Both the position numbers and the translations under genes were made by a program. Below are positions 444 to 9,276 of a DNA stretch of 11,862 nt, one piece after another. Position 1 is the first letter of the stretch. Each line of letters opens with the position of its first letter. The DNA lies in assembly GCA_030601015.1 (NCBI GenBank), contig JAUVUO010000020.1, forward strand, positions 1 to 11,862, written 5' to 3'. Source of the DNA: Candidatus Omnitrophota bacterium (lineage in GTDB: Bacteria > Omnitrophota > Gorgyraeia > Duberdicusellales > 4484-171). The notes beneath the pieces were generated by a model. That model did not search any database and was not told the DNA's origin. It was given only the letters and a program-made list of their open reading frames with translations.

Positions 444-1661
444 TTACGATAATCGGTTATTACTTTGCACGAGTAAAGCTTTCTGCAAATCTTCTTCATT
501 AAGAAAACCAAGTTCTTTTAACGTTTCACCTAAAACAATACCTTTCTTCCAATGGATGTTTAGTGCCTCATCCAACTGTTCACCGGAAACTTTATTACTA
601 TCTAATAATATTTGACCCAGTGGTTTGTGTAAATGGGAATTGTTTTTCTCATTTGTACGTACAATATTATTCGAAGAAAATTTATTATCTCTTCGATCAG
701 CCATAAATTTGCTTCCCGGAATTCTTTTGATATAAGTCTTTATTTCGACAATTTTTTCGCTCACCTCAATAGTACTCTTAATATCTGTCCCTGCTTCCTT
801 ATTTACAATAGCAATTGAAACACTCATTATAGGTATTTTTTTAATTATATTTGTCCTATCTTTAGCCACTATGAATCCTTGTTTTCTATCCACCTCACTA
901 TAATGAAACGGTACCACTTCATCAAACTTTTTAATAAAATTATGACAAATCCTCCCGCACTTATCAGGAGTACTTATTATTGCAAAATCATCCCCTCCTA
1001 TATGACTAACAAAATCATCATTATTACCAAATTCCTTTAAATTTGTAAATAACATATATGCTGTATGTAAAAGAACTCTATCTCCCTTTTGGTAACCATA
1101 AACATCATTAAAGCATTTAAAATTATCCAAGTCAAAATATGCAAAAGAAAAAGGGTCTCCACCCTTTATTTTACATTTAAGGACATCCTCCAGAGTCCTG
1201 CCGCCGGGAAGTCCTGTTAAAGAACTAGCTTCCATCCTGTATTTACATCTACGTATAGTCATTTCGATTCTAATACGTAAATCTAAAGGGTCAGGAGGCT
1301 TAATAAGATAATCGTCAACTCCTTGCTTCAGATTCAATAGCTGGCCTCGTAATTGGCGTTTGTTGATAAGCGCTATTACCGGGATGAATGCTGTTGCAAA
1401 GTTATCTTTAAGTAAACGGCAGATATCCAGATGTTCCTTACTCGCTGTCTGAACATCTACCACTATAACATCCGGTGAAATTTTCTTTATAGTCTCTATA
1501 TCCTCTATCTTTGTATTATTTTTCGAAGAATCTCTTAAAAAAACTTCATAACCCCAACCATCAAAACAAAAATTAAGGACATTTTTTAAATTTTCATCAG
1601 AGGATATTATTAATATTTTTGTAATTTTTTCCATATCTTTATCAATTTGGGAATGTAACAT
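444..1661 (-). CDS. Response regulator: receiver, divergent GGDEF (GGDDF) and C-terminal MshEN-like domain
   Basis: Three domains are visible in 405 residues. Residues 14-135 are a CheY-like receiver with acidic pocket D22/E23, likely phospho-acceptor D69 (VVDV) and K121 (LIKPP). Residues 145-325 are a GGDEF-type nucleotide cyclase domain: SLTGLPGGR at 147-155, FDLDNFK at 176-182, and signature GGDDF at 222-226. The signature has Asp in place of the usual Glu, and the usual SxG after it reads SIAI. As I recall, GGDDF with SxSIAIV occurs in a recognised divergent branch, so it need not be a decayed enzyme, but activity is unproven. Residues 346-399 hold two tandem LGxxLxxxxxxxxxxLxxAL units like the N-terminal domain of GspE/PilB/MshE, which binds c-di-GMP in MshE. 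Neither Met1 nor Met10 (1634) has a Shine-Dalgarno site; with a TSS near 1669, Met10 would have a more usual leader length. Confidence 0.88.
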   Translation of the reverse strand: MLHSQIDKDMEKITKILIISSDENLKNVLNFCFDGWGYEVFLRDSSKNNTKIEDIETIKKISPDVIVVDVQTASKEHLDICRLLKDNFATAFIPVIALINKRQLRGQLLNLKQGVDDYLIKPPDPLDLRIRIEMTIRRCKYRMEASSLTGLPGGRTLEDVLKCKIKGGDPFSFAYFDLDNFKCFNDVYGYQKGDRVLLHTAYMLFTNLKEFGNNDDFVSHIGGDDFAIISTPDKCGRICHNFIKKFDEVVPFHYSEVDRKQGFIVAKDRTNIIKKIPIMSVSIAIVNKEAGTDIKSTIEVSEKIVEIKTYIKRIPGSKFMADRRDNKFSSNNIVRTNEKNNSHLHKPLGQILLDSNKVSGEQLDEALNIHWKKGIVLGETLKELGFLNEEDLQKALLVQSNNRLS

Positions 1662-1779: not shown

Positions 1780-4700
1780 TTAATCTTTCTTATTTTTTTC
1801 GTCGATTACATTTTGTGCTATCTCCCGGGGAACTTCGACATACTTATCAAAACGCATTGAACTGTTTGCCCGGCCACTACTTAAAGACCGTAAATTCGTG
1901 GTATACCCAAACATTTCAGAAAGAGGTGCCTCTGCCTGAATACACTTCTGATTACCTTTAGCATCCATTCCTAAAATTTTACCTCTTCGCGAACATACAT
2001 AACCCACGATATTACTAGCATATTCTTCAGGTGTGTTAATTTCTAAAATCATTGAAGGTTCAAGTAACACAGGGTTGGATTTTAAAAAAGCATTTTTAAA
2101 ACATTCCCTAGCTGTAATCTTAAAAGCTAATTCTGATGAATCGACGTCATGATATGAACCGTCAATTAAACCAATTTTTATATCAACTACCGGATAACCC
2201 GCGAATACTCCTCTATTCATAGCCTCAACAATTCCTTTTTCAACCGCGGGAATATAATTTTTTGGTATAGCGCCTCCCTTAATGCTATCTGTAAATTCAA
2301 ATCCTTTTCCCGGTTCATTAGGGGAAACTTCTAAAATGACATGGCCATACTGGCCTCTACCCCCAGACTGTTTAACATGTTTATATTCTTCCGTAACCTT
2401 TGCTAATATCGTCTCTTTATATGCAACTTTAGGCTGTCCCGAGTCAGCAAAAACTTTAAATTCATTCTTCAATCTATCAACAATTATTTCAAGATGCAAT
2501 TCACCCATCCCTGAAATAATTGTTTCTCCGGTTTCTTTGTCAGAATGGGCCTGGAATGTTGGATCTTCCTCCGAAAGTTTAGCTAACCCCTTACTCATTC
2601 TATCTTGATCGGAACGTGTTTTAGGCGTAATACTGATAGAAACAACCGGTTCTGGAAAATCAATAGTTTCTAAAATTATTTGATTATTCATATCACAAAG
2701 AGTATCACCGGTTAAAGTGCTGTTTAATCCTACAACCGCCGCAATATCACCGGCAAATACAATATCTAAATTTTCTCTTTGATTTGCATGCATTTGAAGT
2801 ATTCGTCCAACTCTCTCTTTTTTATTTTTTAAAGGATTATACACATAAGAACCTGCTTTCAAATAACCGGAATATACCCTTATATAAATTAATTTACCAA
2901 TATGTTGATCAGCCTGTATCTTAAAAGCTAAAGCTGAAAAAGGCTCATTGTCAATAGCCTTTCGATAAATAACCTTCTCAGGATCTTCAGGGTCATTACC
3001 TTCTATATCAGGGATATCTAATGGTGAAGGCAAATAAGCTGATATGCCGTCTAAAAGATTTTGAATACCCTTATTTTTAAATGCTGAACCACAAAATACC
3101 GGAACGATCTCATTAGATATAGTTCCTTTACGTATAACATTAATTAACTCTTCCTTCGTAATTGAACCCTCTGATTTTAAATATTTCTCCATCAAGTCAT
3201 TGTCATTGGCTACAGCTCTTTCAATTAATATATGCCTATACTTCTGGGAAATTTCTTTATATTCCTCATCGATTTCTTCAATTTTATAATTTTTACCCAT
3301 GGTTTCATCATCGTAAATAAAAGCTTTCATTTCTAATAAATTGATGACTCCCTTAAAATTTTCTTCAGCCCCAATCGGAATCTCTAAATCTATCGGATTT
3401 GATTGCAAATCCTTTTCTATGCTTTCTAAAACTTTATAAAAATCAGCACCTGTTCTATCCATTTTATTAATAAAAGCCATTTTAGGTACTTTATATTTAT
3501 CTGACTGCCTCCATACAGTTTCTGATTGAGGTTCTACTCCGCCAACCGCGCAAAAAACAGCAATGGTACCATCAAGAACTCTTAAACTGCGTTCAACTTC
3601 CGCGGTGAAATCAACGTGCCCGGGAGTATCAATAATATTGATACGGCAATCATCCCAAAAACAAGTAGTAGCCGCAGATGTTATAGTTATCCCCCTATCT
3701 TGCTCTTGTTTCATCCAATCCATTTGCGCGTTTCCATCATGCACCTCTCCAATTTTGTGAGAACGTCCGGTATAAAACAAAATCCTTTCGGTAAGAGTAG
3801 TCTTTCCGGCATCAATATGAGCCATAATTCCAATATTTCTTACTTTATCTAAGCCTATTTTACGAACAGGGAGACTATCTGTTTTTTTAACAATTTTGGC
3901 GTTACTATCTTCACTCTTTTCTATTTTTTCAACCTCTGTATTTTCGTTAATTACCTGAACTTTTTCGTTATCTAATGAAGCCGGCACCTCCGCATCTACC
4001 TCTAGAGATTGTTCCCCCTCCTGTTGCTCCTTCTTTATTTGTTTATCTTTATCCTGTAGTTCTTGTTCTTTCACTTGTACCGCTTCATCAATTTTATAAT
4101 TTTCTTTATTTTCTGTCAATTCAAGTTCCGTATTTACCACCTTAACTTCTTCGTTAGTTAATACAATCGAATCATCTTTAACTTCACTTTCTGTTTCAAT
4201 TTTAGTTTTTTCTGCTTCAACCTTTATTCCTCTTTCCAATTCATGGAGTTTGTGAACAATACTTATCCTCTCCGTATCAACTCTTTCTATCTCTTTACCC
4301 TTAATTTCTATTTCTTTATTTTTTATCTCTAATACATGCTTCAACTCTTCAACAAAATCATTTAAAACATTATAATCACTTTTAGAGACCCACTCACTAT
4401 TTTCTTCTTTTTCCTGCATTTGTGCTATAGTTCTGGCATGAGTATTAGTTTGTTTAACTGCTGACTGAATATTTTCTGTAAGTTTGTCTATCTTGTTTTG
4501 CAAATACAGTCTATTATCTGCGGACTCTTTCAACTTAGTTTCCATCTCCTCTATATTTTTTTGTAATTCGTCTAAATTTCTTTTAAAATTTACATTTTTA
4601 GAAAACTCTTTTTCTAATTCCTTTTCTTTATTTAAAAATTTTATTCTAAGTTCAGCTATAGGCTGCCGATCTTTTTTTTGAATATCCTTTTGATTTTCCA

Positions 4701-5010
4701 GCCATTTTTTATTTCGTTTAATTTCATCATTAAGATCCTTCTCTTTTTTCTTCAATTCAGATAATCCTTGTTTTAAATCCGCGGCCTGTCTTTTTATTTT
4801 CTCTAACGACTCATTCTCTGTCTTAAGCCTCAAAATTTGATTTTTTAAAACTTTAATTTGCGCGTTTAAAATTAATATATTCTGTTGATCTATATTTAAC
4901 TTTTTTTTTCGAGATGGTTTATCTTTTTTTGTGCCGCTATTATCAAAAATAAAATAATAGACACCCAAAACAATTGATAAAGATAAGAGAATAAATATTA
5001 GTATAATCAT
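1780..5010 (-). CDS. Elongation factor G fused to an N-terminal membrane anchor and long coiled coil
   Basis: A single uninterrupted frame encodes 1076 residues. Residues 1-22 are a hydrophobic segment, followed by a basic cluster ([10 protein letters not shown] region), predicting a membrane anchor with the rest in the cytoplasm. Residues about 35-290 are charged, heptad-rich and helical, as in a coiled coil. Residues about 290-385 are a Glu/Lys/Val-rich linker. From about 388 to the end (about 690 residues, the usual full length) is EF-G: P-loop AHIDAGKTT at 397-405, RGITI at 439-443, DTPGH at 461-465 and NKMD at 515-518. Domain IV-V signatures follow, including [10 protein letters not shown] and [16 protein letters not shown] hydrolyses GTP to translocate tRNA-mRNA on the ribosome. 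No ribosomal-protein or tuf genes are adjacent. There is no Shine-Dalgarno site before Met1. The only internal start I noticed is GTG at 3987 (codon 342), with AGAGG about 11 bases upstream; it would give a 735-residue near-normal EF-G. Confidence 0.93.
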
Positions 5011-5043: not shown

Positions 5044-5490
5044 CTAAATATTGGCAATTGCTCTAACAATATCTTTTTTTGTCATTACACCAACTAATTT
5101 ATCATTAGATAATACGGGGAAATAATATTGTTTATTTTCTATCATGATTGTTGCGGCATCCTCTATTGATATATCAGGACTGATAGTTAAAAAATCTTTA
5201 TCCATAATTTCACCGACTTTATTTGCCGTTATCTTTTTCATTTCCTCTTCAAACCGTTTTATCCCCAGAGTTAAAAATCCTAAAGAAATATTTACAAATG
5301 TAGGTAAATGAACTTTTTTATCCTGAAAAATAACCCCTTCCTCTTGAACAACTCCTACCAATTTACCTTCCCTATCTACTACCGGCGCCCCGCTGATATT
5401 TTTTTCTACAAGTAATTCTGCCAATTCATGTACGCTCATTTCCTCAGGAACAGTTATTACATTCCTGGTCATCACTTCATTTACTTTCAT
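5044..5490 (-). CDS. CBS-pair domain protein
   Basis: The 148-residue product consists of little more than two CBS domains. The first begins VNEVMTRNVITV and contains SGAPVVDREGKLVGVV; the second begins VGEIMDKDFLTI and ends with KLVGVMTKKDIVRAI. Between them is a short insertion, with a hydrophobic NISLGFLTLGI stretch followed by RFEEEMKK. CBS pairs usually bind adenine nucleotides (AMP, ATP, SAM) and regulate partners; no fused enzyme domain is present, so the target is unknown. An upstream in-frame ATG at 5508 exists, but AAAGGAGGGG sits just before the ATG at 5490, so I take 5490 as the start. The gene leads the EF-G gene by 33 bases and shares its strand, suggesting co-transcription. Confidence 0.92.
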   Translation of the reverse strand: MKVNEVMTRNVITVPEEMSVHELAELLVEKNISGAPVVDREGKLVGVVQEEGVIFQDKKVHLPTFVNISLGFLTLGIKRFEEEMKKITANKVGEIMDKDFLTISPDISIEDAATIMIENKQYYFPVLSNDKLVGVMTKKDIVRAIANI

Positions 5491-5526
5491 ATCCCCTCCT
5501 TTTCTCATAAATTTCTTTTATATTGA

Positions 5527-7139: not shown

Positions 7140-7844
7140 TTAAGTTGACTGATCTTCGATAAATTTCATGATTTTCTGCTGAATTTCATTAGTTATATCA
7201 TAAAATTCTAACCCCATTCCGGGATAATCTCGATACTGTATTTCTTTATCTGCAACCCAAACAACTTTTGTAGCCAATATTAACTTATCAAGCCCAGGGG
7301 GAAGATTTATATATGTTTCTAATATTTCTCCTAATTGAAACAATACATTTGTCTTTACAAACATTCCTACAGCACTCAAATCTATAATAATCCCTTTATA
7401 TATTTTCCTTTTATCCCCAAATTTTGTTTTAAATTCAATAATTTTTCTGGATTCGACCCGTTTAAATTTTCTTCTTAATTTTCCCTTTGTTTCTTTTGGG
7501 ATTTCATTTTTATTTTCAATAGCTTTTAATGCTTCTTCTTCTGAAATATAACATTTAAATACTTTATCTAATCCCACAACAGTAAACAACCGTCTTACAT
7601 GAGCAGGAACGGCATATAATTTTAATTCTCCCGAATGATTTAAAACATTTTTATAAATTACAGCAATCAACGATATTCCTACATAATCAATAAGATTTAC
7701 ACCATTAAAATTACAAATAATGTTTTTTGTCTTATTATTTAAAACCCAACCCACTTTTTCTACTAATTTAGAAGAATTAATATCAATATTACCTTCAATA
7801 TCCAATATAGCCGTATTATTTTTTTTTCTTATTTGAATTTTCAT
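7140..7844 (-). CDS. STAS-PilZ two-domain protein
   Basis: Residues 1-110 form a STAS (anti-anti-sigma type) domain: TAILDIEGNIDINSS near the start, then NFNGVNLIDYVGISLIA and a C-terminal VVGLDKVFKCYISEEEAL. The segment that is DSSG in SpoIIAA reads D53-Y54-V55-G56, so the phosphorylatable Ser is absent. Residues 123-232 form a PilZ domain with the c-di-GMP-binding signatures RKFKR (R125, R129) and DLSAVG (D155, S157, G160), followed by GMGLEFYDI. The expected behaviour is a cytoplasmic c-di-GMP sensor using STAS for protein contacts. The start ATG overlaps the uppP stop in ATGA (7844-7841), indicating translational coupling. It is the last gene of the anti-sigma/uppP operon. Confidence 0.9.
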   Translation of the reverse strand: MKIQIRKKNNTAILDIEGNIDINSSKLVEKVGWVLNNKTKNIICNFNGVNLIDYVGISLIAVIYKNVLNHSGELKLYAVPAHVRRLFTVVGLDKVFKCYISEEEALKAIENKNEIPKETKGKLRRKFKRVESRKIIEFKTKFGDKRKIYKGIIIDLSAVGMFVKTNVLFQLGEILETYINLPPGLDKLILATKVVWVADKEIQYRDYPGMGLEFYDITNEIQQKIMKFIEDQST

Positions 7845-8581
7845 ATCAATAAACTAAGCAAGGATAAAATTAAACAATAATAAGCAAAATTTTTAAATTT
7901 TTTCATAATCAAAAGTTTTTTTACCACTCCTAAAGCAAAAAATGCCGATACAAAAGCAAATATAAACCCCAATGAAATTTCTCGAAAAGAAATATTACTG
8001 TGAACTAATTCTTTTATTTCTAACACAGAAGCCCCTAAAATAGCGGGTATTGCGATTAAAAAAGATAAGACAAATGATGACTCAGGAGAAAATCCTCTTT
8101 TCAAAAAACCCGCGATAGTAATACCAGACCTTGATATACCCGGGAATAATGCGGCTGATTGTAAAAGGCCAATTATAAAAGAATCTTTTAATCTTAGTGA
8201 ATCCCAACTTCTATTTTTATATTTATTTGTAATATTAAATAATATCATAGAGTTAACCATTAAACATATGGCTACCAAATATTTGTTATCAAAAAAACCT
8301 TTCAAATAATGCCTAATAAAAAGACCTATTACACCTGTAATTATTGTAATTAAACATATTTGAGGAAATAATTTTTTATTGAACAAAAGTTTGATATGGC
8401 TAAATAGAAATACGAAAATCGCAAATAGGGTGGCAATATGCAAAAAGACAAAAAAAGCACTATAATCTTCTTGTATCGCCAGAAGTCTCTTTAACAAATA
8501 AAGATGCCCTGAACTGCTTATTGGAAAGAACTCTGTTAACCCTTGAATAATGCCGAGGAATACAAATTTCAGCAAAGTCAA
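7841..8581 (-). CDS. uppP: Undecaprenyl-diphosphate phosphatase UppP (BacA family)
   Basis: This integral membrane enzyme converts undecaprenyl diphosphate to the monophosphate lipid carrier used for peptidoglycan and other envelope polymers. Family signatures are present: the (E/Q)xxxE motif as Q13-GLT-E17, PISSSGH at 20-26 with H26, and PGISRSG at 147-153 with R151. About seven to eight hydrophobic segments span its 246 residues, slightly under the usual 260-275. The start is a TTG at 8581, whose TTGA overlaps the stop of the upstream gene; it gives the family-like opening MTLLKFV. A GAGG at 8585-8582 is too close for that start but is six bases from a second TTG at codon 3 (8575), which may be the true one. 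The stop overlaps the STAS-PilZ start. Confidence 0.95.
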   Translation of the reverse strand: MTLLKFVFLGIIQGLTEFFPISSSGHLYLLKRLLAIQEDYSAFFVFLHIATLFAIFVFLFSHIKLLFNKKLFPQICLITIITGVIGLFIRHYLKGFFDNKYLVAICLMVNSMILFNITNKYKNRSWDSLRLKDSFIIGLLQSAALFPGISRSGITIAGFLKRGFSPESSFVLSFLIAIPAILGASVLEIKELVHSNISFREISLGFIFAFVSAFFALGVVKKLLIMKKFKNFAYYCLILSLLSLLI

Positions 8582-9276
8582 CCTCGAATAAGGAGATAAC
8601 TAACAAAAATAAGGACAATAATTCCAAGAGTTAACGATATGTATTCAAAAAAATCAATTTTCTTTGGTGTTCTGTTAATTTGTTTCTCGTTTTCAATCTC
8701 TTTACTAATTTTCTCGGATTTGCGCTGATTTAAAATATCCTCTTTTTCCTCACATTCTCCAAACTCATCTTTAAACGATATTCTAACATCTTCTCCATCA
8801 CCTTCTGTCTCTTTATTTTCTCCCGCATCCTTTATTTTTTTTTGCTTATCATCTTTTAATTTTTTTTCATCACTTACAAACTGTTGATTCTCTAAAGGAG
8901 CAACATTCCCCATCTTTTTATTATCGTTATTTCCACTAAATACACTAATATCTTCTTGCTGCCTATTCGCAGTAAAAACTTCTTTGTCCTCATTCGCGGC
9001 TGTATGTCTTGGAATATCAGAGATAGCTTTATCATCAAAAACTATCTTAATTTCCGGGAGATTACTTTCCACCTTATGTTTCTCGTCAATTTTGTCACCA
9101 TTGTTTTCTTCAGTATGTAAATTATTTACAACTTCCTTCTTGTCCATCAACTCTCCCAAGTCTGTTCGGCAATTATGGCAAATACAAAGATGTTCTTCGA
9201 CCATCTTTATTTCCGCCTCACTTGCTTGATGCCTAAAATATTTTGGTATTATTTTCTTAATATCTTCACAATTCAT
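8578..9276 (-). CDS. Zinc-finger anti-sigma-like protein, tail-anchored
   Basis: The N-terminus carries a zf-HC2/ZAS-type motif: C3, then H29-xxx-C33-xx-C36. These residues bind zinc in RsrA- and RsiW-like anti-sigma factors, which hold ECF sigma factors inactive. Residues about 45-205 are low-complexity and rich in Lys, Glu, Asp and Asn, so probably disordered. A single hydrophobic segment at about 209-230 ends two residues before the C-terminus, so there is no periplasmic sensor domain. No sigma factor gene is adjacent in the window; its partner, if any, is elsewhere. The ATG has no Shine-Dalgarno site. The gene overlaps uppP by 4 bases and begins the three-gene operon. A weak TTGTTA/TAAACT promoter pair about 80 bases upstream is possible. 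Confidence 0.8.
   Translation of the reverse strand: MNCEDIKKIIPKYFRHQASEAEIKMVEEHLCICHNCRTDLGELMDKKEVVNNLHTEENNGDKIDEKHKVESNLPEIKIVFDDKAISDIPRHTAANEDKEVFTANRQQEDISVFSGNNDNKKMGNVAPLENQQFVSDEKKLKDDKQKKIKDAGENKETEGDGEDVRISFKDEFGECEEKEDILNQRKSEKISKEIENEKQINRTPKKIDFFEYISLTLGIIVLIFVSYLLIRG

Follow-up and report, generated by a model that had tools for sequence, protein, structure and literature searches.

Elongation factor G fused to a predicted membrane anchor and coiled coil in Omnitrophota

Members of the elongation factor G (EF-G) family are, as a rule, soluble proteins of about 700 residues, whereas the gene studied here encodes 1076 residues with a hydrophobic helix and a coiled coil in front of the EF-G part. 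The locus raises two questions, whether such a fusion is genuine, and what an EF-G built in this way would do. The window, i.e. the whole stretch of 11,862 nucleotides that was analysed, belongs to a Candidatus Omnitrophota MAG, and its features are listed in Table 1. The fused open reading frame comprised 1076 codons without a frame break, with an ATG start immediately 3′ of a stop codon. The initial annotation had described a single frame that joins a hydrophobic helix, a coil, a charged linker and a complete EF-G, and this layout was confirmed by the ORF call, Pfam, NCBIfam and hydropathy. The coiled coil itself was shorter than the ~350 residues first assigned to it; it spanned ~200 residues (43-238), and the remainder was the acidic linker.

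Table 1. Features of the fused gene and its direct neighbours in the window.
Feature	Position	Strand	Basis or remark
Fused EF-G gene, 1076 aa	1780..5010	(-)	ORF call, Pfam, NCBIfam
N-terminal hydrophobic helix, residues ~1-22, predicted membrane anchor	4945..5010	(-)	Hydropathy and charge pattern
Coiled coil, scored over residues 43-238; conserved W103, [13 protein letters not shown], SEWVSKSDY	4297..4884	(-)	
Acidic linker, residues 264-384; length and sequence vary among orthologues	3859..4221	(-)	
Complete EF-G, domains I-V, residues 385-1076	1783..3858	(-)	
In-frame GTG, proposed internal start, not conserved	3985..3987	(-)	
CBS-domain protein, directly upstream of the fused gene	5044..5508	(-)	Cluster c5 in 8/51 loci compared
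Response-regulator/GGDEF protein, directly downstream of the fused gene	444..1661	(-)	Cluster c9 in 7/51 loci compared

The N-terminal helix of the window protein reached a Kyte-Doolittle 19-residue maximum of 2.68, starting from residue 2, and was followed by seven Lys/Arg within 20 residues. The hydrophobic heptad power of the coil gave z = 7.3 over 200 shuffles, and z exceeded 3 against shuffles in 27 of 28 orthologues. Asp and Glu made up 28% of the 121 linker residues scored. The coil was ~178-208 residues long and the acidic linker ~56-208 residues; outside the motifs, both were poorly conserved, with a mean column identity of 29%. In the C-terminal part, Pfam located GTP_EFTU at residues 389-662, D2 at 690-773, domain III (EFG_III) at 785-856, domain IV (EFG_IV) at 860-978, and EFG_C at 981-1067.

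The fused protein scored 1062.6 bits against the NCBIfam EF-G equivalog TIGR00484 (cut-off 659.4), which is more than the 956.0 bits of the str-operon EF-G of the same genome. It stayed below the cut-offs of the models for LepA/EF4 (TIGR01393, 148.2 vs 533.9), the ribosomal protection protein Tet (NF012153, 395.9 vs 775) and RF3 (NF001964, 258 vs 473). The closest solved structure was the EF-G of entry 1dar (867 bits), which we take to be that of Thermus thermophilus. With E. coli EF-G as the motif reference, the fused protein carried G1-G4, the switch II His and the domain IV tip loops. Canonical patterns of the G motifs, the switch II His and both tip loops were present in 45/45 rows of the fusion found in the window (family A; the rows include L042 and L049, cut N-terminally, and L045 and L048, cut C-terminally) and in 16/16 rows of a second fusion (family B). 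In family A (n = 45), G1 read AHIDAGKTT in 42 rows and AHIDSGKTT in three, G2 was ERGITI in 42, DRGITI in two and ERGVTI in one, and G3 was DTPGHVDF in 44 and DTPGHIDF in one, while G4 was NKMDR throughout (45/45). Tip loop 1 was [ST]GG[RH]GQYG in 43 rows and SGGRGQYA in two, and tip loop 2 followed GS[YF]H[DE]VDSS[ED] in all 45. In family B, [23 protein letters not shown] and NKIDR occurred in 16/16 rows, as did loop 1 in the form [ST]GG[RK]GQYG and loop 2 with the family-A pattern. The canonical motifs of the 45 fused rows bear out the view that an intact GTPase speaks against decay, and decay of the window gene was rejected. In one relative, though, the fused gene (G203:C86 8927-10987) is interrupted by a single in-frame TAG that lies within the contig.

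In the source genome we found four EF-G genes. As the initial annotation had suggested looking for, one of them lies beside rpsL, rpsG and tuf. This separate str-operon EF-G (C181) is 49% identical to the fused EF-G and, judged by eye, is accompanied by nusG, rplK, rplA, rplJ, rplL, rpoB, rpoC, rpsL, rpsG and tuf. The EF-G part of the fused protein is of a second type (type II), distinct from the str type. An unfused, soluble type II paralogue (C28) shared 71% identity with it. The fourth gene (C100) encodes a divergent paralogue in which GHAQSGKTS, ERKSSI and DIPGY replace the canonical G1-G3; the fused EF-G has kept its motifs, in contrast to this degenerate copy, which supports a working translocase. 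The paralogue with these degenerate motifs lies at L037 9546-11552 (-), and GHAQSGKTS and ERKSSI were present in 3/3 rows. Beside C28, L035 3932-9199 (-) encodes a 1755-aa protein that, by eye, starts like a kinase and ends like a histidine kinase. In G005 we saw no str-type EF-G, but rpsG was missing as well, so this genome is probably incomplete at the str region, and we rejected the fused EF-G as its sole canonical EF-G.

The in-frame GTG at 3987 had been proposed as an internal start, by which one gene would yield two products, a tethered and a soluble EF-G. In the window this GTG is preceded by AGAGG. The 70 codons before the P-loop lack any in-frame ATG except the Met directly preceding AHIDAGKTT, in line with the first reading that none lies between the end of the coil and the P-loop Met. 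Within the 70 codons before the P-loop, however, a GTG or TTG with a Shine-Dalgarno (SD)-like word occurred in just 5/43 family-A rows, each time at a different distance. An ATG was present in the linker in 9/43 rows, without an SD-like word, and an SD-like word preceded the NIGIM Met in 8/43, although a start there would cost the G-domain its first strand. Moreover, a separate gene, C28, already encodes a soluble paralogue. The internal start is thus not conserved, and we regard a two-product gene as highly improbable.

Fusions of ~1000-1170 aa recurred across the source genome and 57 relatives. A 28-row profile of the extension, searched at a threshold of 1e-6, matched 171 of 384 evenly drawn Omnitrophota genomes. 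Architectures were sorted for the top 96 rows, each from a different genome, and the fused counts are therefore lower bounds: a fused frame of ≥ 900 aa was present in at least 64 of the 384 genomes and a shorter fused frame in at least 10, together in at least eight families. Among these best 96 of the 171, the fusions of ≥ 900 aa were distributed over families f1 (17), f2 (2), f4 (39), f12 (2), f41 (1), f42 (1) and f45 (2), and the shorter ones over f1 (4), f4 (4) and f37 (2); at least 22 genomes had a frame that was coil-only or cut before EF-G (f1, 2; f4, 19; f33, 1). Seven of the 10 shorter fusions met a contig edge (G020, G014, G016, G007, G167, G175, G159), those of G334 and G322 lay close to a contig start, and the tenth was the TAG-broken gene of G203. 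In f4, EF-G was re-found in the same frame in 39/39 cases, one of which (G372) was cut by the contig edge. Of the loci in named genomes, 18/19 were titled Candidatus Omnitrophota, Omnitrophica or Susulua, the last of which NCBI places in Omnitrophota, and one was titled uncultured bacterium. The best 120 protein-database hits to the whole fused protein, a list biased by the query to fused proteins and hence no measure of fusion frequency, included 117 with an extension of > 200 aa, of which 107 passed the hydropathy test, and 114 with the coil motif. In the genus mate G001 the extension continues until the 6,120-bp contig ends, and L072, which by its equal coordinates is the same contig, was 72% identical over residues 1-262. 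At the contig end the linker (L109, G001:C150) becomes a TGETETGE-like repeat, which may explain the break of the G001 assembly.

The recurrence in at least eight Omnitrophota families bears out the suggestion to seek the same fusion in related genomes. In addition, the 90% cluster of the window protein includes a member on a 28,905-bp contig, compared with the 11,862-bp contig of the window. A misjoin was rejected on these two grounds, and an assembly error behind the fusion is very unlikely.

We consider it fairly probable that the fused protein is a working EF-G translocase tethered to the inner membrane on its cytoplasmic side, where it would serve nearby ribosomes. With the start codon taken as the last ATG before the hydrophobic window, a 19-residue hydrophobic window (mean ≥ 2.13) began 0-6 residues after that ATG in 44/44 rows. 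At least three Lys/Arg followed within 20 residues of the helix in 34/44 rows; the other 10/44 had one or two, and the topology is less firmly indicated for these. The predicted helix would insert N-out/C-in, and under the positive-inside rule the coil and EF-G are expected to be cytoplasmic. A coiled coil rises by 0.15 nm per residue, i.e. ~30 nm over 200 residues, and the coil would accordingly form a rod ~30 nm long; the linker might give it slack, at most in the range of tens of nm. With such a rod and linker, EF-G would be in reach of a membrane-docked ribosome. At a high local concentration, the tethered EF-G would power translocation on ribosomes docked at the membrane or close to it, and might also act in their recycling; ribosomes elsewhere in the cell would be left to the str-operon EF-G. 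Most Omnitrophota cells measure ~0.2 µm across (PMC10066038), so the tether would cover a large share of the cytoplasm. The initial annotation had pictured a membrane-tethered specialised paralogue beside a normal EF-G; the spread over at least eight families, the intact motifs and the separate str-operon gene all fit this picture, in which the tethering is predicted from sequence. On the other side, a Pfam scan of 10 window proteins turned up no Sec, YidC or SRP protein to go with the putative role in membrane-bound translation.

The helix-coil also occurs on its own. Stand-alone helix-coil proteins of ~205-350 aa were found in families f26, f30, f32, f33, f36, f38, f44, f12 and f4, and in the f1 genome G021 one stands alongside a fusion. 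A protein search with the N-terminal profile gave two hits among the candidates listed. The profile of the fused extension scored 77-173 bits on 11 stand-alone helix-coils, whereas the highest score among 260 shuffled copies was 3.1 bits. Since its homologue also exists alone, the anchor is a separate module. In 17 stand-alone genomes re-searched with the EF-G part, no type II EF-G of 65-71% identity was found, the best EF-G being 49-55% identical. Of the 19 coil-only genomes of f4, 17 had only a str-type copy at 1e-150, and G364, which is 75% complete, had no EF-G at that threshold; in G138 a type II piece lies on another contig, so that the gene there may be a fusion in split form. The neighbours of stand-alone coils (an aminotransferase, a TPR protein, a cyclophilin and an MgsA-like AAA protein) indicated no function.

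Both states were met within genus g61, with the fusion in 4/16 genomes examined (G341, G188, G102, G284) and a coil without type II EF-G in 12/16. At the five coil-only loci that were read, the protein stops short of EF-G with a charged tail, and these loci have neighbour clusters (c16, c13, c12, c15) in common with the fused gene of G049. Loss of EF-G in g61 would be the simpler reading. In these relatives the EF-G part is dispensable and the coil has a use independent of it, which counts against a tethered translocase, and the genus offers a natural experiment on what EF-G contributes. It might also be argued that the roles are reversed. The helix-coil, as a scaffold in the membrane or a rod of the envelope, would then do the work, and EF-G would be a GTPase handle that binds ribosomes in order to store, anchor or regulate them, not for routine translocation. 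The isolated coils in many families, the missing type II EF-G in the re-searched genomes and the state of g61, with neighbours common to G049, agree with such a scaffold. Nevertheless, the translocation signatures, including both tip loops, were kept in 45/45 rows, and a mere handle could lose them; we judge a scaffold with a handle unlikely, although it deserves some weight.

A tethered translocase gains support from the second fusion. In family f32, G182 and G244 (2/7 genomes searched) had fused frames of 1032 and 1077 aa, laid out as a hydrophobic start, a coil-like stretch, a Glu/Pro-rich linker and EF-G. This seemingly independent helix-coil-linker-EF-G fusion of f32 is seen at L189 4317-7388 (+). 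The family-B extension gave 7.3 bits (G182) or no listed match (G244) with the family-A profile, the best of 260 shuffles reaching 3.1, and no homology of the two extensions was found. This second fusion was found in f32 and in metagenomes; among its best 120 database hits, 29 had an extension of > 200 aa, which began with a hydrophobic stretch in 25. Its EF-G sits in the str-type clade. In a 72-row tree, the 16 B-fused rows formed one clade (100/99) within the str-type clade (100/100), and the A-fused rows grouped with unfused type II EF-G in a separate clade (100/100). Forcing A and B into a single clade was 643.6 log-likelihood units worse and was rejected (p-AU 0.00016), under LG+G4 without mixture and with test groups that were defined by architecture but set after the first tree had been seen. 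The A-fused rows were one clade in a 99-row quick tree (SH-aLRT 99) and no single clade in the careful 72-row tree, where one clade was not rejected (p-AU 0.435).

These trees thus point to two apparent origins of the design within the phylum, which suggest a deliberate placing of ribosome movement at the membrane. More broadly, we tentatively propose, as a reading with close to an even chance of being right, membrane-dedicated elongation in Omnitrophota: on two or more occasions, canonical EF-G would have been joined to helix-coil-acidic-linker tethers that are unrelated to each other, giving the membrane-near ribosomes of very small cells their own translocase pool. EF-G is taught as freely diffusing, and a covalently tethered EF-G that has its full set of catalytic signatures, occurs in many families and was invented twice would mean that bacterial elongation can be spatially organised. 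A dedicated factor supplying membrane-bound ribosomes becomes a testable idea, and a natural tethered EF-G is offered for biophysics.

Like EF-G (FusA, TIGR00484), the window protein has all five domains, canonical G motifs and the tip loops; it differs in that a helix, a coil and an acidic linker, together ~385 residues, precede these domains, and in its place outside the str operon. To our knowledge, no membrane-anchored EF-G paralogue is known. We found no description of a membrane-anchored or Omnitrophota fused EF-G in open-licence PMC papers, and the words "membrane" and "coiled" occurred 0 times in the main text of the EF-G paralogue survey PMC4342817. The nearest precedent for a translational GTPase at the membrane is EF4/LepA (PMC4085283), a location that is predicted for the window protein. 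EF4 differs in that it binds the membrane reversibly, depending on growth conditions (PMC4085283), and the window protein lies below the LepA cut-off. Bacteroides EF-G2, spdEFG, gcEFG2 and EFGII resemble the fused protein in being a second EF-G beside a housekeeping one.

These precedents bear on a further alternative, in which the extension would mark a stress- or lifestyle-specific paralogue that is stored by membrane binding until needed. The fused EF-G is accessory to the str-operon EF-G, and EF4 was 80% membrane-associated under optimal conditions (PMC4085283). Moreover, Bacteroides EF-G2, the nearest precedent for a conditional EF-G paralogue, is up in carbon limitation, where its authors suggest compensation for falling EF-G (PMC6989115). 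An integral helix, however, could be released only by proteolysis, and we hold storage to be improbable.

Turning to the other genes of the window, a zf-HC2 (anti-sigma-like) protein encoded at 8578-9276 (-) has a hydrophobic segment in its C-terminal part, and the Pfam scan of window proteins showed no sigma factor. The GGDEF motif of the response-regulator/GGDEF protein is spelled GGDDF, and one protein at 7140-7844 (-) joins STAS and PilZ domains.
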